DNA of 64,000 nucleotides from Labilibacter marinus. GTDB taxonomy: Bacteria > Bacteroidota > Bacteroidia > Bacteroidales > Marinilabiliaceae. Location: the NCBI RefSeq assembly GCF_001659685.2, contig NZ_LXYE02000012.1:186001-250000 (forward strand). Direction: 5' to 3'. Shown here piece by piece: positions 42,161 through 53,676 of this stretch. Position numbers and translations under genes: made by a program. The notes under the pieces are model-generated. The model did not search any database. It was not told the DNA's origin and saw nothing but the letters and a program-made list of their open reading frames with translations. The stretch's first letter is position 1, and every line of letters begins with the position of its first letter.

Positions 42161-44296
42161 ATGTCAACTCAAATTAATCAGATTATAGCTCAGGAGCTGA
42201 AGTTGCAGCTCAATCATGTAAATAGTACCATCGAATTAATTAGCGAAGGAGCTACTGTTCCATTTATTAGCCGTTATCGAAAAGAACGAACGGGTAGTAT
42301 GGATGAGGTAAATGTTGCTTTAGTTAAAGAGAGATACGAAAAGTTGCTTGAAATAGAAAAGCGAAAAGAAGCTATTTTAAAGTCGATGGACGAGCAAGGG
42401 GTGTTGACTGCTGAGCTTCGAAAGAAAATTACGGAAACTTTTAATTCTACTGAATTAGAGGATATTTACCTTCCTTTTAAACCCAAAAGAAAAACGCGTG
42501 CTGTAAAGGCTAAAGAAAAAGGACTTGAGCCTTTGGCTAAAGTCATCATGAAGCAATATGAACGTGATGTAGAAGGGAAAGCTTCGCAGTTTGTAAATGA
42601 TGAGGTATTGGATGCAGAAGAGGCTTTACAAGGTGCGCGAGATATAATTGCGGAGTGGGTTAATGAAAACTCTGTTGCACGAGATATTGTACGTACGGGT
42701 TTTGATCGAAACGCTATAGTTTCTTCCTCCTTGGTGAAAGGAAAACAGGAAGAAGGAATGAAATATAAAGATTATTTCGACTTTAGTGAGCCTCTTAAAA
42801 AGTGTCCTAGCCATCGTTTGTTGGCGATACGTAGAGGAGAAAAAGAAGGGGTTTTAAAAGTTAATATTTCGCCAGATGAAGAACAGATTTTAGATCGTCT
42901 AGGTCGCTATTTTGTAAAAGGTAATACAGAGGCTTCGGAGCAGGTGGAATTGGCTGTAAAGGATTCGTTAAAGCGTTTGTTGAAACCATCCTTAGAAACG
43001 GAGTTTGCTAACCTCTCAAAAGAAAAGGCAGATGCTGAAGCGATAAATGTGTTCACAAATAACTTACGACAATTGTTACTTTCTTCGCCTTTGGGCCAGA
43101 AAAGAGTGTTGGCTATTGATCCTGGCTTCAGGACGGGTTGTAAGGTCGTTTGCTTGGATGCGCAAAGTAATTTAGTGCATAATGAGAATATCTATCCGCA
43201 TCCTCCGCAAAGAGAGACTAAGCAGGCAGCAAAGAAAATATCTTCTTTGGTAGATGCTTATAAGATTGAAGCCATTGCGATTGGCAATGGTACTGCCTCT
43301 CGAGAAACAGAATCGTTTATTCGAAGTATAAAATACAGTAGAGATATTCAGGTTTTTGTGGTGAGTGAAGATGGAGCATCTATTTATTCGGCCAGTAAGG
43401 TGGCTCGTGAGGAATTTCCAGAGTATGATGTTACGGTTCGTGGAGCGGTTTCTATCGGCAGGCGTTTAATGGATCCTTTGGCAGAGTTGGTAAAAATTGA
43501 TCCTAAGTCAATTGGTGTGGGACAGTATCAGCATGATGTTGATCAATCTAGTTTGAAGTCATCGTTAGATCAAGTAGTTGAGTCTTGCGTAAATAAAGTG
43601 GGAGTTGACTTAAATACGGCTAGTATGCACTTGTTAACTTACGTCTCAGGTTTAGGGCCGCAGTTGGCTAAAAATATTGTAGAATATAGAAAAGAGAACG
43701 GAGCTTTTGCTTCCCGCAATCAGTTGAAAAAGGTGCCGAGATTAGGTGCCAAGGCTTATGAGCAGGCTACGGGATTTTTACGAATAACCGAAGCTAAAAA
43801 TCCTTTAGATAATTCTGCAGTTCATCCTGAATCGTATGCTATAGTGGAAAAAATGGCTAAGGATAATGACTGTAAGGTAAAGGATTTAATTTCGGATAAA
43901 AATATCCGGGATAGGATAAAATTAAACGATTACGTTACAGAAACTATCGGAATGCCTACGCTTAAAGATATCATGAGTGAGTTAGAAAAGCCTGGGCGTG
44001 ACCCGCGACAAATCATTAAAGTATTTGAGTTTGATAAAAATGTGAGGGGTATTGAGGATTTGATTGAAGGCATGATTTTACCAGGTATCGTGACCAATAT
44101 AACCAATTTTGGGGCTTTTGTAGATGTGGGTGTAAAACAGGATGGTTTGGTTCATATTTCGCAGCTAGCCAACAAGTTTATAAGCGACCCTAATGAGGTT
44201 ATTGCTTTACATCAGCATGTAAAAGTTAAAGTAATGGAAGTAGATAGGGTGCGTAAAAGAATTCAACTGTCGATTAAAGAAGCAGAGATGCAGTAG
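42161..44296 (+). CDS. tex: Tex family S1 RNA-binding protein
   Basis: A 711-residue Tex/YhgF protein. The ATG at 42161 (MSTQINQII) is preferred over the in-frame TTG at 42119, which adds 14 unconserved residues. Domains: N-terminal HTH region, a YqgF/RuvX-like RNase H fold (VLAIDPGFRTGCKVV), HhH motifs (YVSGLGPQLAKNIVEYRKENG) and a C-terminal S1 domain (ILPGIVTNITNFGAFVDVG). Tex is a conserved nucleic-acid-binding protein linked to transcription and RNA processing, related to eukaryotic Spt6. Confidence 0.94.
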   Translation: MSTQINQIIAQELKLQLNHVNSTIELISEGATVPFISRYRKERTGSMDEVNVALVKERYEKLLEIEKRKEAILKSMDEQGVLTAELRKKITETFNSTELEDIYLPFKPKRKTRAVKAKEKGLEPLAKVIMKQYERDVEGKASQFVNDEVLDAEEALQGARDIIAEWVNENSVARDIVRTGFDRNAIVSSSLVKGKQEEGMKYKDYFDFSEPLKKCPSHRLLAIRRGEKEGVLKVNISPDEEQILDRLGRYFVKGNTEASEQVELAVKDSLKRLLKPSLETEFANLSKEKADAEAINVFTNNLRQLLLSSPLGQKRVLAIDPGFRTGCKVVCLDAQSNLVHNENIYPHPPQRETKQAAKKISSLVDAYKIEAIAIGNGTASRETESFIRSIKYSRDIQVFVVSEDGASIYSASKVAREEFPEYDVTVRGAVSIGRRLMDPLAELVKIDPKSIGVGQYQHDVDQSSLKSSLDQVVESCVNKVGVDLNTASMHLLTYVSGLGPQLAKNIVEYRKENGAFASRNQLKKVPRLGAKAYEQATGFLRITEAKNPLDNSAVHPESYAIVEKMAKDNDCKVKDLISDKNIRDRIKLNDYVTETIGMPTLKDIMSELEKPGRDPRQIIKVFEFDKNVRGIEDLIEGMILPGIVTNITNFGAFVDVGVKQDGLVHISQLANKFISDPNEVIALHQHVKVKVMEVDRVRKRIQLSIKEAEMQ

Positions 44297-44319
44297 CGAA
44301 TGCTTATAAAGTATAAAGT

Positions 44320-44371
44320 AAAGGGTGTGGCTATATGAAGAATAGACATGCCCTTTTCGTTTATGGGCATG
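44320..44371 (+). terminator. Terminator-like region after tex with two competing hairpins
   Basis: AAAGGG (44320-44325) can pair with CCCTTT (44351-44356), which ends in TTTT. The same CCC also lies in CATGCCC (44347-44353), which pairs with GGGCATG (44365-44371). The two stems exclude each other. The region is 24-75 bases past the tex stop and upstream of the symporter promoter. Confidence 0.45.
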
Positions 44372-44384
44372 CGAATTCTCTTCG

Positions 44385-44413
44385 TTGGTGCGTGGAATAT
44401 TTATCTATATTTG
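44385..44413 (+). promoter_or_regulatory. Promoter of the AGCS symporter gene (TTG-N18-TATATTTG)
   Basis: TTG at 44385-44387 and TATATTTG at 44406-44413 (full TAnnTTTG match) are 18 bases apart. The start would be near 44420, about 32 bases before the ATG. Confidence 0.6.
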
Positions 44414-44451
44414 TGTTGTTTCAAACAAAATGATGAAAATTTAAGGTTGTT

Positions 44452-46176
44452 ATGCAGGAATTTAATGATTTTTTGGTCAATATAGACTCGTATATTGGGA
44501 GTAGTGCTTGGTTTGTTTACCTTTTATTAGGTGTAGGGTTATTCTTTACAATTTACTTAGGGTTTCCGCAATTGCGATATATGCGATATGCGCTTAAAAT
44601 TGTAATGGGTAAATTTGATCGAGAAGGAGATAAAGGAGATACTTCGCATTTTCAAGCCTTAACTACAGCCTTGTCTGGTACGGTTGGTACTGGTAATATT
44701 GCTGGGGTTGCTTATGCAGTGTATCTTGGCGGTCCGGCTGCCTTATTTTGGATGCTAGTAACTGCTTTTATTGGTATGACAACCAAGTTTGTGGAGGTAA
44801 CATTATCTCATAAGTATAGGGAGACTGCTGAAGATGGTTCAATTTCTGGAGGGCCCATGTATTTCATGAAAAAGCGACTGGATATAAAAATGCCTTCAGG
44901 AAAGGTGGTGAAAACGGGTAAGCTGATGGCGATTATTTTTGCTGTGGCAACTGTATTATCTTCGTTTGGAACAGGAAGTTTACCGCAAATTAATAGTATC
45001 TCCAATTCGATAAATTCTACGTTTGGCGTTCCTCATATGATTACTGGTATTGTTCTGGCAGTTTTATTGGCTATCATTATTATTGGTGGAATAAAGCGAA
45101 TTGCTCAGGTTACTTCTAAGTTAGTTCCTACAATGGCTGTTATTTATTTTTTAGGTGCTATTGCAGTTATATTATACAACTATGATAATGTAATTCCTTC
45201 TATTGTTTCTGTTTTTGCAGATGTTTTTACAGGCTCTGCCGCTACAGGAGGTTTTTTAGGAGCAACTATTGCTTTTGCGTTTAATAGGGGAGTTAATAGA
45301 GGATTGTTTTCCAATGAGGCGGGTCAGGGTTCAGCACCAATTGCGCATTCTGCAGCACGAGCACACGAGCCTGTTTCTGAGGGGTTAGTAGCTTTGTTAG
45401 AGCCTTTTATCGATACAATTGTGATATGTTCAATTACTGGTCTTACCTTGCTGGCTTCTGGTGTGTGGAGTGAAAAGTTTCAAAATACTTTTCAGCGTTC
45501 AGACATGCAAATTGTAAATGGTATTTATGATGATACAAACGATAAGGATAGACTAACTCTAGGAAATCATATCAATGATGTTTCTTCTATTGCATTGTTC
45601 TCGGGGCAATTAAATATTGAAGAAGGTGAAATCAAATCTGATATTTCTATTTTACATTCTAGATCTTTAGCAGAAAATATAAAGGTGTATTCCGGAAAAG
45701 AATTATTTACAGGAAATTTAAGTGTAAAGGATGGAGTGGTTGAAAACAATAAAAAAATAAGTTTTCAAGGAAAATCATTAGTACATAGTGCTCCGCTAAC
45801 CACTATTGCCTTTACTAAAAGTTGGTTTGGTGATTTTGGTAAGTATATTGTATCTGTAGGTTTGCTTTTATTTGCCTTTTCTACTGCTATTTCTTGGTCG
45901 TACTATGGAAGTAGAGCCATCATATTCTTATTTGGAGTAAAAGGGGTTAAATATTACCGTATTGTGTATGTGCTAGGGTTTTTCTTGGCCTCGTTTACGG
46001 ATACTACAATTATTTGGACTCTTTCAGGTATTACTATAGCCTTAATGACCATTCCTAATCTAATTGGAATATTTGCGTTGCATGGAGAGATGAAAAGTGA
46101 AGTTGGTAAATTTTGGAAGGAATATGCCAAGCGATTTCCAAAGGAAAAATTACCGCTTTTCCATAAAGATAAGTAG
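44452..46176 (+). CDS. Alanine/glycine:cation symporter (AGCS) with an extra loop domain
   Basis: A 574-residue symporter of the AGCS family (AgcS/DagA/AlsT), which takes up alanine or glycine with Na+. Family signatures: [17 protein letters not shown] (about 71-87), SGGPMYFM (about 132-139) and [19 protein letters not shown] (about 278-296). Usual length is 450-490 residues. The excess is a polar block at about 341-446 between two late membrane helices (LTLLASGVW and [10 protein letters not shown]), rich in charged residues and beta-like repeats. That block carries no family motif. Confidence 0.92.
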
Positions 46177-46322
46177 TAAGGTGTGGATAATATGTAAACA
46201 AAACATAATACATGATGAGTGTTTTGTAATTATGATGTTTTTCTTTACATTATCTTTCTTTTTGCTTATGTTTGTATTGCTTCCTTGTAATTTAGTAAGG
46301 AGCATCGCAAAAGCTAGTAACA

Positions 46323-47966
46323 ATGAAAAGTCTTAATCTATATTTGATACTGTTGTTCTGTTTTATAATAGGAAGTGGAGTTGATGCTAATTCTCAGGAA
46401 TTATCTAAAGACGAGATAGAGCGGGCTTTTGTAGAAATAGATTTTAATACGATATACTATCCCGAAAAGGCAAAACAGCAATTTGATTCTATTAGAGGTG
46501 TTTTGACGAGTGACAAGCAATCTGAATATATTGGCTATATTAATTTTTTGACGGCAGAGATGCTGTTTAAAGATTTAAAAGTGGATTCTAGTTTGTTGTT
46601 GGTGGAGTCGTCTATTGGCATGTTTACATCTCAGGATAATCGGGTTTGGTTAGCTAAATGTCAACATTTATTAGGTCGAATTGCTGAAGCAACTGGTTTG
46701 ATGGAGCAGGCTAAAATAAATTATTATGAGGCGATTAATTTATCTGATGAAACAAATGGCTGGGTTGGAAGTGCTTATATAGGAATTGCTAGGTGTAAGA
46801 GGGTGTTAGGTGAGTTATTTATGGAGGATCTTACCTTAGGGATTAAGTATATGTCAGAGTCTGATAGGAGGGAGTTTGTTCTGTATGCTAGGCTCATAAA
46901 AGAAATATTTAATCTAGGTGCGCAGGGTGCTCCTGATAGGTTGGGAGAAGTTGCGGACGAATACCTTGCTCTTGAAATGTATGATAGAGTTGCAAGTGTT
47001 TATAAAATGATTGCAAGTAGTTATAATATCCAGTCTGAGTTTGATTCTGCTCACGAGTATTGTGATAGAGCTATAGGATTGTGTGAGGTGAATGAGACTG
47101 GAGGTATGATACTTCCTGCTTTATATCAGTTTAAAGGAGTGTTGTATTTTAGGCAATCTAGGTTAAATGTTGCTGGGGTTTATTTTGAGAGATCTCTTAA
47201 GATGTATGAGATTAATAATCAACCTAATAGGATGTTGTATGCATATAATTATATACATCAAATAGATGTTGCTAAAGGTAATTATAAAAGAGCTTATCGG
47301 AATTTGCAGGAATATAATGATCTTGTTGAGAAAACGACATCGTCTGAGAAGGTTAGGATGGCTAAGGTGTTAGAGATTAATAATAAGGTGGCGCTTATGA
47401 AGGGGCAGTTGGCTCAGTTGAAGACTGAAAAAAAAGCCAGTGAATTTATGTTGTATCTAGTTTTAGTGATTACTATTGTTGTTTTGCTAGGGGTGGGTGT
47501 ATATATATATCTATATCAGAAAAGTAAAAAAGCGAAAATTGAGGAACTAAATAAAGAGTTTCATAATTTACTGATAGGTATTGGTGAAAAGCAGTTGTTG
47601 GAGCATAGGTTAAATAGTAGTCAAAATCTATCAAGAAAGGATAGGAAGGAACTTAGTTTTGTTGATAGTTCCGGATTGTCGGTGGCTAGTGAAGGGGGTA
47701 TCGGTGATAGTTTTGATAGTTGTTATATGGAGACGATTAATTTGTTTACAGACTCTTTTCCTCAGCTTACGAAAACTGAGGTGCGCTATTCGGTAATGAT
47801 TTGTTTAAGGTTGCCTATTGAGGTGATAGCAAAAGTTCAAAACGTTCAGCCTGCTTCTATAAGGAAAGCGAAGCAGCGTATTCGGACAAAATTAGATGTA
47901 AAAGATAGTTTGGAGGATTATTTACAGGAATTCAGAGAACGTCAAATTTCTAGCCTAGCAGTTTAG
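46323..47966 (+). CDS. Membrane-bound TPR regulator with LuxR-like C-terminal HTH
   Basis: A 547-residue one-component regulator. Signal sequence at residues 1-24; TPR-like helical repeats at about 65-335 (periplasmic); one membrane helix at 375-398; a short coiled coil; then a cytoplasmic C-terminal HTH at about 478-535 (FPQLTKTEVRYSVMICLRLP, IAKVQNVQPASIRKAKQRIR) of the LuxR/GerE-like kind common to Bacteroidota TPR regulators. It could carry an outside signal directly to DNA. The nearest target is the peptide gene 243 bases downstream. Codon use favours AGG for Arg more than the neighbouring genes do. Confidence 0.85.
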   Translation: MKSLNLYLILLFCFIIGSGVDANSQELSKDEIERAFVEIDFNTIYYPEKAKQQFDSIRGVLTSDKQSEYIGYINFLTAEMLFKDLKVDSSLLLVESSIGMFTSQDNRVWLAKCQHLLGRIAEATGLMEQAKINYYEAINLSDETNGWVGSAYIGIARCKRVLGELFMEDLTLGIKYMSESDRREFVLYARLIKEIFNLGAQGAPDRLGEVADEYLALEMYDRVASVYKMIASSYNIQSEFDSAHEYCDRAIGLCEVNETGGMILPALYQFKGVLYFRQSRLNVAGVYFERSLKMYEINNQPNRMLYAYNYIHQIDVAKGNYKRAYRNLQEYNDLVEKTTSSEKVRMAKVLEINNKVALMKGQLAQLKTEKKASEFMLYLVLVITIVVLLGVGVYIYLYQKSKKAKIEELNKEFHNLLIGIGEKQLLEHRLNSSQNLSRKDRKELSFVDSSGLSVASEGGIGDSFDSCYMETINLFTDSFPQLTKTEVRYSVMICLRLPIEVIAKVQNVQPASIRKAKQRIRTKLDVKDSLEDYLQEFRERQISSLAV

Positions 47967-48071
47967 TGTTGGTTGTGTGGAACATAATAATGATTTGCAG
48001 ATTGTTCGATATCGATCACTTTTAGATGTATTCTTTAGTATTATGTTTTGTTCTGGATTGAGTTGTTTTTT

Positions 48072-48092
48072 AAGCTCATTTTTTTTGAGCTT
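48072..48092. repeat. Inverted repeat between the TPR regulator and the peptide gene
   Basis: AAGCTCA (48072-48078) pairs perfectly with TGAGCTT (48086-48092) around a loop of seven T residues. No T run follows, so it is not a standard terminator; it may be a weak terminator or a protein-binding site. Confidence 0.4.
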
Positions 48093-48120
48093 GTAAAATG
48101 TTGTGCCATAGCGTTATGGA

Positions 48121-48142
48121 TTTTGTCACGCTTTTGTCACGC
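48121..48142 (+). promoter_or_regulatory. Two tandem 11-bp repeats (TTTTGTCACGC) upstream of the peptide gene
   Basis: TTTTGTCACGC occurs at 48121-48131 and again, with no gap and no mismatch, at 48132-48142. The period is one helical turn, as expected for two protein subunits binding side by side. The pair ends 31 bases before the putative -7 box, the usual place for an activator site. Confidence 0.55.
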
Positions 48143-48172
48143 CTAAAATTCGTATTTTTTTACCTCTCCTTA

Positions 48173-48180
48173 GATATTTG
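48173..48180 (+). promoter_or_regulatory. Putative -7 box (GATATTTG) for the peptide gene
   Basis: GATATTTG matches TAnnTTTG at all positions but the first T. A T-rich -33 region (TTTTTTT, 48154-48161) lies at an acceptable distance. The start would be near 48187, giving a leader of about 23 bases before the ATG at 48210. An imperfect -7 box fits a promoter that needs an activator. Confidence 0.4.
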
Positions 48181-48209
48181 TGATAAACAATTCAAAAACA
48201 ACGTTTATC

Positions 48210-48407
48210 ATGAAAACTTCAAAATTATTTTTTGCAATTATAACAGTGTCTGTAATTTTTTCATTTTCGAATATAAATGCTAATGAAAAAAAGGATTTAA
48301 TCGAATTTGAGAAGAGTAGTGTTGTGAAAGAAGACCCTATTATTATAATGATGGGCGAAAGTAAGGTTGTAAAAGAAGATCCTATTATTATAATGATGGG
48401 CGAGTAG
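48210..48407 (+). CDS. Small secreted peptide precursor with two 13-residue repeats
   Basis: A 65-residue product from the ATG at 48210 (the in-frame GTG at 48180 lies inside the promoter). A signal peptide (residues 1-24, ending NINA) is followed by a short acidic linker and two copies of VVKEDPIIIMMGE at 38-50 and 53-65, so the protein ends exactly at the second copy. The repeat DNA is 39 bp at 48321-48359 and 48366-48404; the three base differences all fall at third codon positions and are silent. No known family was recognised. A secreted signal peptide sensed by the upstream TPR regulator is an inference. Confidence 0.7.
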   Translation: MKTSKLFFAIITVSVIFSFSNINANEKKDLIEFEKSSVVKEDPIIIMMGESKVVKEDPIIIMMGE

Positions 48408-48439
48408 GTTATATATGTGTTATTTTTAAAGATATTAAT

Positions 48440-48805
48440 ATGGTAACTGTTTCGGTATATGGAGATATAGTTGAGGTGGATTTAAACAGATTCATTACCA
48501 TTGAAGATGTAATAGATTCAGTAAAGGAATATGCGGATGAGTCAAATACTCTACCGTCGAGCCATTTATTAGTTATAAATGCTACTAATTGTAGAACTAA
48601 TATTGGACTTAAAGATTTAGCTAGGTTAGACCAGGTAAACGAATTGCTAAGTGAAAAATTTGAATTGCTTAAAGTGGCGGTGTTAATAAATGACCCCATG
48701 TATACTGCAATTTGCATGATATATCAAAAGTTGATTAAATCAAACCATTATCATTTTCAGGTATTTTCTACAAGAGGTGCCGCGCATAGATGGTTAAAAA
48801 GATAG
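48440..48805 (+). CDS. SpoIIAA/STAS-like protein, copy 1
   Basis: A 121-residue alpha/beta protein, 32 bases after the peptide gene and probably in its transcript. The layout (strand MVTVSVYGDIVEVDL, helix TIEDVIDSVKEYA, strand HLLVINATNC, helix, strand KVAVLINDP, helix, strand FQVFSTRGAAHRWL) fits the SpoIIAA-like/STAS fold. The C-terminal VFSTRGAAHRWL block is shared with the protein at 49096-49548. Such proteins often work as regulatory adaptors; no partner is known here. Confidence 0.7.
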   Translation: MVTVSVYGDIVEVDLNRFITIEDVIDSVKEYADESNTLPSSHLLVINATNCRTNIGLKDLARLDQVNELLSEKFELLKVAVLINDPMYTAICMIYQKLIKSNHYHFQVFSTRGAAHRWLKR

Positions 48806-48920
48806 TTTAGAAAGAAAATAGGTTGCTAAATATTCTTGTTGAAAATAGAGGCATTGAAAAAAATTGCGCTGATTCCCAAATTGTTGCAGTCCGTATGCCG
48901 CCTATTACTAAACAAGATGT

Positions 48921-48955
48921 AAGTCCGTCATGATATTTTATCTGGCGGACTTTTT
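48921..48955 (+). terminator. Rho-independent terminator of the peptide/SpoIIAA-like operon
   Basis: AAGTCCGTCA (48921-48930) pairs with TGGCGGACTT (48943-48952) over ten positions, including one G-U pair, and ends in five T residues. It separates the first SpoIIAA-like gene from the second, which has its own -7 box. Confidence 0.85.
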
Positions 48956-48969
48956 ACAATGTATAAAAA

Positions 48970-48977
48970 TATGTTTG
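48970..48977 (+). promoter_or_regulatory. Putative -7 box (TATGTTTG) for the second SpoIIAA-like gene
   Basis: TATGTTTG is a full TAnnTTTG match located just after the terminator at 48921-48955. The -33 candidate is a TTTTT at 48951-48955 shared with that terminator. Confidence 0.4.
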
Positions 48978-49095
48978 TTACATTATCGAAGGTGTTAATG
49001 TAAGGTTGTTGAGTTTGAATAGTTTTATTGCTGGTTTTTTTAATGAAGAAAAAAAACTAACTTTATATTCAATCGTTAAAATTTTGGTTTATCGA

Positions 49096-49548
49096 ATGAG
49101 GAAAATAGGAGAGAACTATATAATCCAATATAAATTTGTAAATGATTTCAACTTAATTGTTGAAAAACATATTGGTTATGTGCAATTGGATGTTTTAAAA
49201 GATTCGATTAAATTATTGAGTTCTAAAAAGGAGTTTTCAATTAATGCCAATTATTTAATTGATCTGAGAGAGTCTGGTTTTAGTATGAATATTGATAAGG
49301 TTAAGGAATTTGTGAATTTTTTGGATGAAAACTACAGTGGTGCATTAGAGAATAGAATTGCCATGATTGCTGATGAATCGGACCAGGTAGCTATGGCTAC
49401 GCTCTTTAAAATGTTACAGCCTAGAACTTCAAGAAATGTACATGTTTTTTCAACTTTAGAATATGCTCTTTTATGGCTTAATGTTGATTTAGAAGAACGT
49501 AGAATGGAGCAGATTATTGAATCTGCCAATTCGCTGGTCAAGTGTTAA
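49096..49548 (+). CDS. SpoIIAA/STAS-like protein, copy 2
   Basis: A 150-residue protein from the ATG at 49096; a TTG at 49006 would add 30 residues with no counterpart in copy 1. Strand and helix order match a SpoIIAA-like fold: NDFNLIVEKHIGYVQLDVLKD, NYLIDLRES, RIAMIADES, then HVFSTLEYALLWL, which parallels the VFST...WL block of copy 1. The LxDLRES motif is the place where STAS anti-sigma antagonists carry a phosphorylated Ser, but that role is not established here. A 17-residue acidic helix ends the protein. Confidence 0.65.
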   Translation: MRKIGENYIIQYKFVNDFNLIVEKHIGYVQLDVLKDSIKLLSSKKEFSINANYLIDLRESGFSMNIDKVKEFVNFLDENYSGALENRIAMIADESDQVAMATLFKMLQPRTSRNVHVFSTLEYALLWLNVDLEERRMEQIIESANSLVKC

Positions 49549-49563
49549 TTGTTCTAAACTTCT

Positions 49564-51477
49564 TTACATCTCCTGCGTCTGATAATACTCTAATAAGTCA
49601 GTAAGTTTTTCGCTTGATAACTGAAGCCCACCTTTTCTATTTCTTATTACCCAAAGCTTTTTATGATTGATGATTAATTCTTCCAGTTCTTGGGCGAGTT
49701 TTTTTCTTGTTTCACTATCTATATTTTCAGTAGCGTAATTTTCTGCTTCAAGTCTTGCTAATCCTAAGTTGATTCCATGTATGGCTAGATTGGCGGCTTG
49801 TTTTAATTCTTCCAATATTACTTCTGCTTTATACCCTTTAGGTTCTGATGAATCCAATAATTCTAAAGCTAATTTTATTTCTTTTTTGGCCTTTAATAGG
49901 TTTTCACTAGTTAGCATTTTCGTTTGGTAATGGCCTTTCATAGTCCATCTGTAACGCCTAAGCATTAAATGAAAAGCGTTTGCATTGCCTTCTTGAATAT
50001 CGCATGCTAGATAAGCATTTCCCAATTTTAATAAGGCCTCCGAAAGTTTGTCGGTTTTATCTTCAAAAATATAGTTGGATAAAACAGGTGCTAATTTAGC
50101 AGTCGGATTACTTTCGCTATTCCATGAATAAGCTGATCCAACTGCCATGGCAGGATAACATACCGAAAGAGGTTGCCAGTGCCCCCAGTCGCCCCAATTG
50201 GTGTTAAGATAGCCTTTGGCTTTATTGGTGCTACCGTAAACGGCAGCTTGTTTTAAATTAATGAATGCATCTTTGTTTCGTCCAATTTCAGAACGCCATG
50301 TGGAAGTTCCAGGGCAAACATAAAAATCAAGCCCTGCATCTTTGAATTTAGGAAGGTTTTCTTGGAAAGGATAAGTGCTTTCGTAGCCCCAAACCATAGC
50401 TGTCATATTTTTAGGGATTTCCGAAATGAGCTCAGAGTGATTTAGGATGATGTCTCCCCAAAACTGCGCTTTTTTGCCATTGATATTGGCTTCTGAATTA
50501 AGCTTTTTTACATAGTCAAGATATACATTTCCAACGCCTTGCTTTTTACATGTTTTTTTTGACAGACCATTACCTAATTCAACAGTTTCATCACATCCTA
50601 TATTAAAATATTCGCTACTGAAGTTGGGTAGTAGTTCGGTGTACAATTCCTTCATTAAGTCAAACGATTCGGGGTTTAAAGGATTTAGACTATGCCTGCT
50701 TCTTGTTCCCCATTTGGTATCGCAATCGGTTGGGCATTCTGCTAAATGAAGATATTCATCGTGTTTTAACCAGTTTTCCATATGTCCAAATGAATTCTGA
50801 TTAGGCACTAAATCGATGAATTTAGCTTTGCAATACGCGTCAATTTGTGTAATTTCTTTAGGTGTCATCGGACTAGCCTCTTCCCAAACTTTTTTATGGT
50901 TTTGATAGGCGAATGTGTGTTCTGTGTATAGTTGGAATTCATTGATTTTCCAAGAAGCCAACAAGTCTATAATATGATAAAGTGTTTCCATGGTTGGAAC
51001 CTTATCTCGGCTAATATCCAACATGTAACCGCGTCTCTCAAAATCTGGCCAATCATTAATGGTTAAGCAAGGAGTTGCTTGTCCTGTTTCTTGGCTGTAT
51101 TTGATAATTTGAAGTAATGTTTGCTTTCCGTAATAAAGGGCAGCTTCATCTTTACCAGTAATAGTAATATTAGTTGAGTCAATAGTTAGTTTATATTGCT
51201 GTAGATGAGTTAAGGTGCTATCAATGGAAAGCTTGAAGGTATTATTTGTTAATGGTGATGAGAGTACTTTTAATTCGCCTTTAATATTAAAAGCCAATGA
51301 TTTTTTTATAACCGAATAGAATTCGTTCGATGAGAATGTTGCGCCTTGTACTTCGTTGAAGTTGCCTGTGGCATATTTTACCTCTTTAGGCGCAGGAAAT
51401 AAATAATCGTTTAACTCTTGTGCTTGAACTGAAATGCAAATAAAAAGAAGTATAGATAATGTGGCAAATATTCTCAT
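49564..51477 (-). CDS. Family 20 beta-N-acetylhexosaminidase
   Basis: A 637-residue secreted or periplasmic GH20 enzyme. Signal peptide at residues 1-19; an N-terminal GH20b domain (about 25-140); a TIM-barrel catalytic domain from about 142, with the Asp-Glu pair Asp296-Glu297 in NIGCDETVELG, where Glu is the acid/base and Asp orients the substrate acetamido group. It removes terminal GlcNAc or GalNAc from chitin fragments, glycans or cell-wall material. The 150-residue C-terminal helical part has no known motif. It follows the radical SAM gene by 12 bases. Confidence 0.92.
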   Translation of the reverse strand: MRIFATLSILLFICISVQAQELNDYLFPAPKEVKYATGNFNEVQGATFSSNEFYSVIKKSLAFNIKGELKVLSSPLTNNTFKLSIDSTLTHLQQYKLTIDSTNITITGKDEAALYYGKQTLLQIIKYSQETGQATPCLTINDWPDFERRGYMLDISRDKVPTMETLYHIIDLLASWKINEFQLYTEHTFAYQNHKKVWEEASPMTPKEITQIDAYCKAKFIDLVPNQNSFGHMENWLKHDEYLHLAECPTDCDTKWGTRSRHSLNPLNPESFDLMKELYTELLPNFSSEYFNIGCDETVELGNGLSKKTCKKQGVGNVYLDYVKKLNSEANINGKKAQFWGDIILNHSELISEIPKNMTAMVWGYESTYPFQENLPKFKDAGLDFYVCPGTSTWRSEIGRNKDAFINLKQAAVYGSTNKAKGYLNTNWGDWGHWQPLSVCYPAMAVGSAYSWNSESNPTAKLAPVLSNYIFEDKTDKLSEALLKLGNAYLACDIQEGNANAFHLMLRRYRWTMKGHYQTKMLTSENLLKAKKEIKLALELLDSSEPKGYKAEVILEELKQAANLAIHGINLGLARLEAENYATENIDSETRKKLAQELEELIINHKKLWVIRNRKGGLQLSSEKLTDLLEYYQTQEM

Positions 51478-51489
51478 CTTAATTGAATG

Positions 51490-53676
51490 TTAGATTGTAA
51501 GTAAACCTAATTGTTTTAACTGTTGTAATGTATAGCTTTTCCAGAAAATCGTAAAATCTCCAAGCTCATTTTTTTCAAATTCTTTTTGTGTATCTGCTAT
51601 GGTTGGCTGAAGGACTTGGCTGATGGAACATTTACCCAATAGCTCTATAATCCACTGCCCTAATGATTCCTTCGTGTTTATGATTTCTGTGCTTTCTCGC
51701 AAATGAAAGATTAATTCGCACATCTTCGTTGATTTACCTTTTTTCTTTTTGGAATAAAGTCGCAGACTAGGAAGGTTTTCAGTCCATATAAGTTTTCTAT
51801 TGGGCGAGTTATCCTCCTCGATTACGCTGATACTATTGTGTATTAAATCGTAAGGGATCTTTGTTCTAGGGATTTTAAAATCAAACCAGTCCTGTAAAGG
51901 AAGGTCGAAGCCAACATCTAGCATGTAATTGTATAACGATTTTTTTAACCCTTCGCTATATAAATGATGAGAAGCACCAGTTGAGTCAATATGTTCAAGG
52001 TCGTTATTGGCAAAGGAATTGGTTTCAGGATTTTTGGCTTCCACCTGGAACTTTTCTGGATTTTGTCCCACTGGACTATGAGCAGTCATAGCAAATTGGT
52101 GCCAAAAGCCAGAATTTACAATCTGGTTTTCAAATAATTGCCTAACAACTTCAAGCGAGTCAATGGTTTCTTGGTCTGTTTGAGTAGGGAACCCATACAT
52201 TAAATACGCATGAGTTAAAATGCCTGCGCTGGTTAGGTTTTTACAAACCTGTGCAACCTTTTCAACACTTACCCCTTTGTTGATGAGGGATAAAATTCGG
52301 TTAGAGGCTACTTCTAAACCTCCTGAAACAGCTATGCATCCTGATTTTTTAAGTAAGGTGCAAACATCTGATGTAAAACTACTTTCAAATCGAATGTTAG
52401 TCCACCAAGTAAAGTTTAGTTTTCGTTTAATCAATTCTTTGGCTAACGCAATCATTAAGGCTGGAGGAGCTGCTTCATCTACGAAATGAAAGCCAGATTG
52501 GCCTGTTTGTTCGTAAATGGTTTCCATTTTATTGCATAGCACTTTTGCTGTTACAGGCTCGAAGCGAGCTATATAATCGAGCGTTGTATCGCAAAAAGTA
52601 CACCTACCCCAATAGCATCCATGAGCCATGGTTAATTTATTCCAAAAACCATCACTCCACAATCGATGCATGGGGTTAGTTATTTCTATAAAAGAAAGGT
52701 AATTATCTACTTTTATGTTGTTATAGCTAGGGCTTATTTCTTGTTTTAGGGAGATATCCTTACTGCTAGAGTTGTCGATATATTCAACTTTGTTATCCGC
52801 TTTTATTAAAGTGCGTTTTAATGGTCGGCTATTGTCGCTGATGTGCTCTATCAGGTTCAATAATGGTGTTTCTCCGTCATCTAAAGTAATATAATCAATG
52901 AACTCAAAAATACGTGTGTCAGATAAAGAGCGGAGTTCTGTATTGGCATAACCACCTCCCATGCAAATTTTAATGTTGGGATAATTGCCTTTTAAATACT
53001 GTCCGCATTTTAATGCTGAAAACAAATTACCAGGAAAGGGCACCGTGATGGCTACGATGCTTGGTTGTTCTTGCTGAATGCAATCATCAATAATTTTGTG
53101 TTGATGCTGAATGATGAGTGAGTCCTCTTTTAGAACCTCCTCATAAATTGGAGTGAAACTAAAAGCTGAAGAGCTAAGTCTCTCAGCATATCTGCTAAAT
53201 CCAAAGTGTGGGTCAATAGTTTCAACAATAAAATCGGATAAATCTTCTAATAATAGTGTGGCTAGATGCCGAGCTTTATCTCTAATTCCCATGTTGCCAA
53301 AACTCCAATCTAAATCTTCAGCTTGAGAAAAACGAGAAGCTTTGGGCAAATAGGCATCTGAGCAAATTCGGTAAGCCAAGGTCTCATCATTTCCCTTAAG
53401 AAAAAGGATGACGTCATCAATCACTTCAATATATGAATCTTTTAGGGCTTGTATCCTTTGGCTGTTATCTGAAAGTTCTTGAATATTTAGTGCTTGGTTA
53501 AATATTTCATTCAATCCATGGCTCGAGAATATTTTCAGAATTACTTCAAGGCCCAGATCAATTTGATAAGAAGGGATTTCTTTATGTTCTAGAAAACCCT
53601 TAAGATATGTGGTAGCAGGGTATGGCGTATTAAGTTGGGTAAAAGGCGGAGTTATTAAAAGTACTTTAGCGCTCAA
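51490..53676 (-). CDS. B12-binding-type radical SAM protein
   Basis: A 728-residue protein from the TTG at 53676. An upstream in-frame TTG at 53703 lies inside a -7 box (TACTTTTG read on the minus strand, 53701-53708), so the later start is preferred. A cobalamin-binding-like region (about 1-300; IVAITVPFPGNLFSALKCGQ, CMGGGYANTEL) leads into a radical SAM core with Cys354, Cys359 and Cys362 in GCYWGRCTFC, a C-x4-C-x2-C spacing instead of C-x3-C-x2-C. GGLEVASNR follows, near the SAM-binding loop. The substrate is unknown; pairing with a GH20 enzyme suggests glycan or peptidoglycan chemistry. Confidence 0.82.
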   Translation of the reverse strand: MSAKVLLITPPFTQLNTPYPATTYLKGFLEHKEIPSYQIDLGLEVILKIFSSHGLNEIFNQALNIQELSDNSQRIQALKDSYIEVIDDVILFLKGNDETLAYRICSDAYLPKASRFSQAEDLDWSFGNMGIRDKARHLATLLLEDLSDFIVETIDPHFGFSRYAERLSSSAFSFTPIYEEVLKEDSLIIQHQHKIIDDCIQQEQPSIVAITVPFPGNLFSALKCGQYLKGNYPNIKICMGGGYANTELRSLSDTRIFEFIDYITLDDGETPLLNLIEHISDNSRPLKRTLIKADNKVEYIDNSSSKDISLKQEISPSYNNIKVDNYLSFIEITNPMHRLWSDGFWNKLTMAHGCYWGRCTFCDTTLDYIARFEPVTAKVLCNKMETIYEQTGQSGFHFVDEAAPPALMIALAKELIKRKLNFTWWTNIRFESSFTSDVCTLLKKSGCIAVSGGLEVASNRILSLINKGVSVEKVAQVCKNLTSAGILTHAYLMYGFPTQTDQETIDSLEVVRQLFENQIVNSGFWHQFAMTAHSPVGQNPEKFQVEAKNPETNSFANNDLEHIDSTGASHHLYSEGLKKSLYNYMLDVGFDLPLQDWFDFKIPRTKIPYDLIHNSISVIEEDNSPNRKLIWTENLPSLRLYSKKKKGKSTKMCELIFHLRESTEIINTKESLGQWIIELLGKCSISQVLQPTIADTQKEFEKNELGDFTIFWKSYTLQQLKQLGLLTI

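Follow-up and report, generated by a model that had tools for sequence, protein, structure and literature searches.

Does the small secreted repeat peptide encoded next to a membrane-bound regulator in Labilibacter marinus act as the ligand of that regulator? The two genes lie within positions 46,323 to 48,805 of the 64,000-nt stretch of DNA analyzed here (contig NZ_LXYE02000012.1, positions 186,001 to 250,000; hereafter the window), which comes from a genome of 6.03 Mb. The regulator gene, the peptide gene and a STAS/SpoIIAA-like gene follow one another in this order on the + strand, with a gap of 243 bp between regulator and peptide gene. A first-pass annotation had described a regulator with a signal sequence, tetratricopeptide repeats (TPR), a membrane helix and a helix-turn-helix (HTH), a 65-residue repeat precursor and a STAS-like gene in one run, and this description was confirmed. 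We put the probability at about 0.55 that the locus encodes a one-component peptide-sensing system with autoregulation, in which the peptide is the ligand of the regulator. The features of the locus, in window coordinates, are:

46323..47966, + strand: regulator of 547 amino acids (aa) with signal sequence, periplasmic TPR domain, one membrane helix and cytoplasmic HTH (open reading frame (ORF), Pfam, AlphaFold2 and orthologues; the topology is predicted)
48121..48142, + strand: putative operator, the 11-bp direct repeat TTTTGTCACGC TTTTGTCACGC (8 of 8 orthologous loci match the core pattern exactly)
48173..48181, + strand: GATATTTGT, which may be the -7 element of a Bacteroidota-type promoter (the same in 8 of 8 loci; the promoter role is presumed from the consensus)
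48210..48407, + strand: secreted repeat-peptide precursor of 65 aa (ORF, homologues in the genus)
48210..48281, + strand: probable signal peptide, approximately residues 1-24 (judged from the sequence; in a relative, AlphaFold2 models a helix at the N-terminus)
48288..48314, + strand: degenerate first unit KKDLIEFEK (alignment, by eye)
48327..48353, + strand: 9-mer unit 1, KEDPIIIMM (unit comparison)
48372..48398, + strand: 9-mer unit 2, KEDPIIIMM, with GE between it and the stop codon (unit comparison)
48440..48805, + strand: STAS/SpoIIAA-like protein of 121 aa, starting 32 nt past the peptide stop (homologues in the genus)
48917..48957, + strand: terminator-like hairpin with a T run (RNA fold of 48900-48965: -18.2 kcal/mol, z -3.8)

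The window precursor contains two copies of VVKEDPIIIMMGE, the second of which ends at the stop codon. The two 13-residue units reported in the first pass are indeed identical over 13 residues and reach the C-terminus, but they are spaced by 15 residues (45 nt) rather than 13. The repeat is real beyond chance, since it is found intact at the same place in six of the eight other genomes of the genus and broken in one, and its copies differ mainly at synonymous sites. Across the seven intact precursors of the genus, which hold 2 to 6 units, the conserved core is [KRE]EDPI[IV][IV]XX; the unit indicated by conservation is 9 residues long, where the first pass had proposed one such as KEDPIIIMMGE. 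Within these precursors the 9-mer core is identical at 522 of 531 compared positions (98%) and the spacer between units at 87 of 128, whereas between species the consensus 9-mers are about 62% identical, the species differing chiefly in the last two residues (MM, TK, TR, GR, QQ, IG, MC). Four of the seven intact precursors end exactly at the last 9-mer.

Between copies, differences per site amount to 0.66 at synonymous (pS) and 0.040 at nonsynonymous (pN) sites, summed as plain uncorrected pairwise counts, with pairs not independent, over eight precursors (the seven intact ones and that of G001:C13, which adds no differences); pS exceeds 0.8 in both six-unit precursors. Because homogenization at the DNA level would wipe out synonymous differences, selection on the peptide itself keeps the copies alike. 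Uniform copies combined with differences between species would be the pattern expected when one partner must recognize each copy. On the basis of conservation, the 9-mers are presumably released by cleavage. Positional orthology of copies between species was not found in the four species pairs checked. Chance or recent duplication as the origin of the repeat was rejected, as the copies diverge widely at synonymous sites. The peptide has a Sec-type N-terminus and no double glycine (GG); it gave no Pfam match at E<=1 and one chance match in NCBIfam (15.7 bits vs a cut-off of 389).

The second line of evidence is linkage. A regulator orthologue is present in 8 of 9 genus genomes (the window's own and seven at 54-58% identity), and the peptide gene adjoins it in all eight, intact in seven and broken in one (G004). 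In G001 there is no regulator orthologue, and a single-protein search gave no peptide match, which is weak evidence of absence because the same search overlooked the peptides of G003 and G008, later found by ORF scan. At the G004 locus (L091, upstream of 5810, - strand) the peptide frame is interrupted between the start codon and the signal sequence and the repeat is down to one unit at the end, KEDPIVIQL; regulator, operator and STAS-like gene are all retained. A second, decayed regulator fragment with in-frame stops occurs at G002:C57:21977-22603.

Elsewhere in the Marinilabiliaceae, and in a single genome from another Bacteroidales family, the same regulator clade is paired with other small acidic secreted peptides. 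Of seven paralogous regulators, which come from six Marinilabiliaceae genomes and are 27-35% identical to the window protein, six have a small secreted ORF nearby; four of these ORFs are divergently oriented, and all six are acidic-rich and contain DP. The peptides of G000:C40, G041 and G046 have in common a C-terminal W(I/L)(L/M)xLxG(L/F), and their profile gave three strong matches in 71 genomes of the family, all at regulator loci, with the rest at E of at least 0.001. In G553, the genome from the other Bacteroidales family, which was found afterwards, two of three regulators of this type are followed, on their own strand, by a small acidic secreted ORF, which in one case contains DDDERDP; no operator was found at the G553 small ORFs. 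Linkage in relatives had been set as a test in the first-pass annotation: no unlinked peptide homologue was established, and all three strong matches of the second peptide type lie beside a regulator. A profile of the eight precursors, searched against 395 genomes of the class with only two own-family genomes among those listed, recovered its own locus and two weak matches at E about 0.005 (a 346-aa frame and a frame with stops), which we take as chance. The regulator surveys of class and order scored the three best candidates per genome, and distant members may be missed.

For a uniform count, an ATG-started ORF of 60-120 aa was scored as linked if it lay at most 1.3 kb away and had a basic hydrophobic N-terminus and no second hydrophobic segment. 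Such an ORF accompanies 14 of 19 regulators of the family. The comparison groups gave 0 of 18 for distant relatives and 5 of 103 for other genes, the latter a non-random sample because it was drawn from loci around operator sites, STAS-like genes and controls; when [DE]DP is also required, the counts are 11 of 19 and 0 of 103. The five misses are G004 (broken frame; counted as linked by position in the genus count above), G001:C13, where the filter against a second hydrophobic segment excludes the DEDDPIILPTDI repeat peptide, G019, G553a and G033. The 18 controls are other proteins of the window's own genome with a related C-terminal domain; 15 of them measure 495-561 aa and another 963 aa, while the remaining two, at about 280 aa, resemble response regulators. 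Several adjoin sulfatase-, glycosidase- or SusC-like genes, as judged by eye. About twenty proteins with a related C-terminal HTH occur in this genome.

The third line of evidence is the operator. The pattern TTTGTCACG[CT]TTTTGTCACGC is found upstream of the peptide gene in 8 of 8 orthologous loci. A genome scan with TTTGTCACGNTTTTGTCACG, allowing at most two mismatches, returned 36 sites in the nine genus genomes vs 1 for the reversed control, and 7 vs 6 in the other 62 genomes of the family; three of these seven are in G016, which has a regulator of the family. Scored as two half-sites, the operator is present with 0-4 mismatches upstream of 11 of 13 small-peptide genes, at a distance of 84-94 bp from the ATG (a count that omits G004, where the operator was seen in other scans, and the G553 loci): all seven orthologous genes have no mismatch, and four of six paralogous genes have two (G016, G001:C41, G046) or four (G041), vs 0 of 111 control upstream regions scoring <=4. 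Operator-linked regulators read VQ or IQ in the HTH, and those of G000:C40 and G001:C13 read NIN; the G019 HTH also reads VQ, yet G019 has neither a peptide nor an operator match. The invariant GATATTTGT starts 30 bp past the operator, which would thus lie near -57, an activator position, if GATATTTGT is the -7 element. The promoter scan of the locus covered sigma-70 types only and was uninformative. Given a conserved direct-repeat operator that tracks the regulator family and lies in the region the first pass had proposed, it is very probable, on sequence grounds, that the regulator controls the peptide promoter through it; the operator is not confined to this promoter, as it marks further genes too.

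Candidate targets were judged by ORF starts at 40 sites (all rows of the TTTGTCACGNTTTTGTCACG scan minus the window's own, G011 and G048), of which 37 are intergenic; the other three fall inside predicted ORFs, the one in G054 being a frame of 407 aa. The peptide unit is the target in eight genomes. The operator further precedes a chemoreceptor-like protein (MCPsignal E 6e-30 in G003) with a STAS-like gene in G003 and G007, the G000 counterpart of this site having the same upstream gene but a contig end; a 67-aa protein in G000 and in G007, in the latter behind a STAS-like gene; a membrane protein of about 76 aa in G000, G002, G003 and G004; a TonB-type receptor in G003 and G008; and, in G006 and G007, an operon of a small HTH protein, HlyD, a C39 peptidase transporter and GG-leader peptides, identified by Pfam in G006 and by sequence in G007. 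Many further sites have no clear common target. The bacteriocin-like C39/GG-leader export operons stand under exact operator copies (L111:3924-8682 and L120:4632-8895, respectively), and C39 transporters were seen only at such separate operator-marked loci.

The upstream regions of L110, L114, L119, L129 and L131 contain arrays of 3 to 6 TGTCACG half-sites at an 11-bp phase, in four genomes before the ~76-aa membrane protein and in G005 before the same ABC gene as in G002; these arrays look like sites for cooperative binding along one DNA face. In G016, a Marinilabiliaceae metagenome-assembled genome, operators precede three different small secreted ORFs (L132:4412-4699, L133:1111-1377 and L083:3265-3516), two of which precede TolB-like propeller lipoproteins (PF15869). 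These ORFs have no Pfam match and are reminiscent of the NVEALA-type small secreted peptides of Bacteroidota; a literature search under that name found nothing. In the window's own genome, two tandem 240-aa genes that look alike (L107:3882-6028), the first of which matches DUF6261, have an operator copy each (C4:108881 and C4:110022).

The regulator itself matches Pfam TPR_12 (E 1.2e-8), with no Pfam match for the HTH. Its AlphaFold2 model (mean pLDDT 83) comprises a helical-repeat region (residues 29-320), a single helix (321-433) that encloses the hydrophobic membrane segment, and a five-helix C-terminal domain (464-546). The top Foldseek matches are LGN/Pins complexes (E 2.5e-7), consensus TPRs and OGT; the best matches also include Rap with the pheromone CSF (4gyo; E 3e-5, TMt 0.58) and phage phi3T Rap with its pheromone (8rsu; E 3.5e-5, TMt 0.61). 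At the level of sequence profiles, the matches are to kinesin light chains and consensus TPRs. The modeled TPR domain is compatible with peptide binding rather than proof of it. Mean pairwise identity among eight orthologues is 52% in the TPR domain, 76% in stalk and membrane helix, and 80% in the HTH, and the apparently faster evolution of the TPR domain relative to the HTH was counted in favor of its reading a peptide ligand. The NCBIfam model of BT_3442, which an earlier description presents as a multi-domain TPR protein (PMC2954219), matches the TPR part far under its cut-off.

From these results we infer export, cleavage, TPR binding and activation rather than repression, in the following sequence. 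The precursor would be exported by Sec to the periplasm and cut there into copies of a species-specific 9-mer (KEDPIIIMM in the window species), which the periplasmic TPR superhelix of the membrane regulator would bind. The long membrane-crossing helix would then carry the signal to the HTH in the cytoplasm. There the HTH would bind the TTTTGTCACG tandem repeat, which lies some 57 bp ahead of the predicted transcription start, and activate the peptide-STAS unit (autoregulation) together with a small regulon. Comparison among genomes supports the linkage, the operator, the operator-marked regulon and the selection for identical units. The predicted topology puts the exported precursor and the TPR domain in one compartment. 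Peptide ligand, TPR receptor and autoregulation through the tandem operator form the most economical reading. The peptide may leave the cell as a population signal or may act in the periplasm alone. The fuller formulation falls somewhat short of even odds and is offered tentatively: a Gram-negative pheromone system, one instance of a wider Bacteroidota family, in which a Sec-exported precursor holds up to six copies of one species-specific nonapeptide. A membrane-spanning TPR one-component factor would read this peptide in the periplasm and activate the gene of its ligand along with a regulon that, in some species, takes in bacteriocin-like peptide export.

Several observations weigh against the peptide being the ligand. 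Foldseek likeness among TPR superhelices is unspecific, and a fast-evolving sensor domain is common in many regulators. We identified neither a protease nor an exporter or importer for the peptide. No small secreted ORF was found near the paralogue in G019, nor by G033 and one of the three G553 regulators; the G004 peptide frame is broken; and the peptide genes of G000:C40 and G001:C13 lack the 11-bp operator.

The alternative that survives best, although unlikely, holds that the peptide is an output, a secreted multi-copy bioactive (e.g., bacteriocin-like) peptide, and that the regulator answers a different cue in the periplasm, for instance envelope stress or a glycan fragment. Under this alternative one would understand why the operator also heads the C39/GG-leader export operon in two species and, in G016, small secreted ORFs without the DP repeat; the TPR-HTH relatives near sulfatase/glycosidase-like genes in the same genome likewise suggest other ligands, and identical copies under selection also fit a single outside target. 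However, a small secreted acidic ORF is kept near the regulator despite changed peptide type and orientation, which is more natural for a cognate ligand, and no immunity-like gene was recognized beside the peptide. Quite improbable is a periplasmic monitor, in which the cell retains the peptide, and the amount present once it has been exported by Sec and proteolyzed reports the state of the envelope, of export or of proteases; a periplasm common to peptide and TPR domain, the lack of a linked outer-membrane exporter, and the STAS-like and membrane proteins among the regulon members would suit it, but it leaves unexplained that the last two residues of the 9-mer vary between species yet are identical within a precursor. 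Slightly less probable again is a structural or adhesive repeat protein (amyloid-like, beta-repeat) or TonB-box mimic, in which the repeat serves structure rather than recognition of free units. In its favor, the AlphaFold2 model of a six-unit precursor has short strands at most of the units, and stretches such as EEDPIVVTK are reminiscent of TonB boxes. Against it, the model shows no confident fold (repeat-region pLDDT about 36-49), unit spacing is inconstant between species (11, 13 or 15 residues), the window species has just two intact units, and the peptides of the paralogous loci retain the acidic DP and not the TonB-box-like stretch.

The peptide-ligand reading invites comparison with the RRNPPA systems of Bacillota (Rap/Phr, PlcR/PapR, AimR), in which a TPR receptor gene likewise adjoins a secreted-propeptide gene. 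Such propeptides are described as containing 1 to 4 identical or similar pheromones (PMC11343458). The locus is also alike in its adjoining small secreted propeptide with the putative pheromone at or near the C-terminus, and in a TPR model that resembles pheromone-bound Rap. In contrast, RRNPPA receptors are cytoplasmic and have a C-terminal TPR (the HTH, where present, being N-terminal), whereas here an N-terminal TPR is followed by a membrane helix and then the HTH, in a Gram-negative phylum and with up to six units per precursor. Unlike RRNPPA systems, no re-import by an oligopeptide permease would be needed, because the receptor is predicted to be periplasmic. Since the receptor architecture differs, the RRNPP model invoked in the first pass holds as an analogy only, and the locus is best read as analogous to RRNPPA systems, not a member of them. 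RRNPP_detector, by its description, was run on complete Firmicutes genomes and discarded N-terminal TPRs (PMC10075063).

The TPR-transmembrane-HTH architecture and the related C-terminal domain are shared with the SusR-like regulators of Bacteroidota polysaccharide utilization loci. Here the adjoining gene encodes a small secreted peptide; the ORFs read at 43000-52000 include no SusC/D-like gene but one that looks like a glycoside hydrolase. As in the regulated class II bacteriocin systems of lactic acid bacteria, direct-repeat operators are found both at the peptide gene and, in two of the species, at an operon for C39/GG-leader export, but the locus has no histidine kinase/response regulator pair and its leader is of Sec rather than double-glycine type. 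With neither a GG leader nor a linked C39 transporter, the precursor also differs from double-glycine, C39-exported bacteriocins and ribosomally synthesized and post-translationally modified peptides (RiPPs). Yeast alpha-factor type precursors are similarly built of a signal peptide and several identical copies with looser spacers, although the present system is bacterial and its receptor and processing are unrelated. Bacteroidales RiPP clusters are reported to include TPR genes (PMC10352776). Among the open-license papers searched, none was found that describes a dedicated receptor for peptide sensing in Bacteroidota, or this system, which looks like an undescribed way for these marine Bacteroidota to sense their own peptide. 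If so, a TPR-transmembrane-HTH scaffold whose relatives lie near polysaccharide genes would have been re-used for peptide sensing. Since a candidate 9-mer ligand, an operator and a regulon are all predicted, direct testing is possible with synthetic peptides and a reporter, and the within-precursor signature (identical peptides, saturated synonymous sites) offers a general route to multi-copy peptide signals in genomes.

Among the surroundings of the locus, the single Pfam match of the STAS/SpoIIAA-like ORF, DUF7793 (E 0.0016), is under the gathering score, and 'SpoIIAA-like' is therefore a label and not an established membership; a STAS-like homologue occupies the equivalent position in 6 of 8 loci, window included, at 54-60% identity. 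The hairpin at 48917..48957 is absent from the terminator-scan list because its loop exceeds the limit of the scan. No SusC/D-like gene was found among the ORFs read at 43000-52000, the locus had no match in plasmid records, and PHROGs gave no match for the peptide or the STAS protein and one weak match for the regulator (E 0.001). Past the hairpin, at 49096-49548 on the + strand, lies a second STAS/SEC14-like protein with sub-threshold Pfam matches only; by eye, it has counterparts adjoining the locus in G004 and G008. Next, at 49564-51477 on the opposite strand, comes a gene that was judged by eye to be glycoside hydrolase-like and has an equivalent beside the genus loci.

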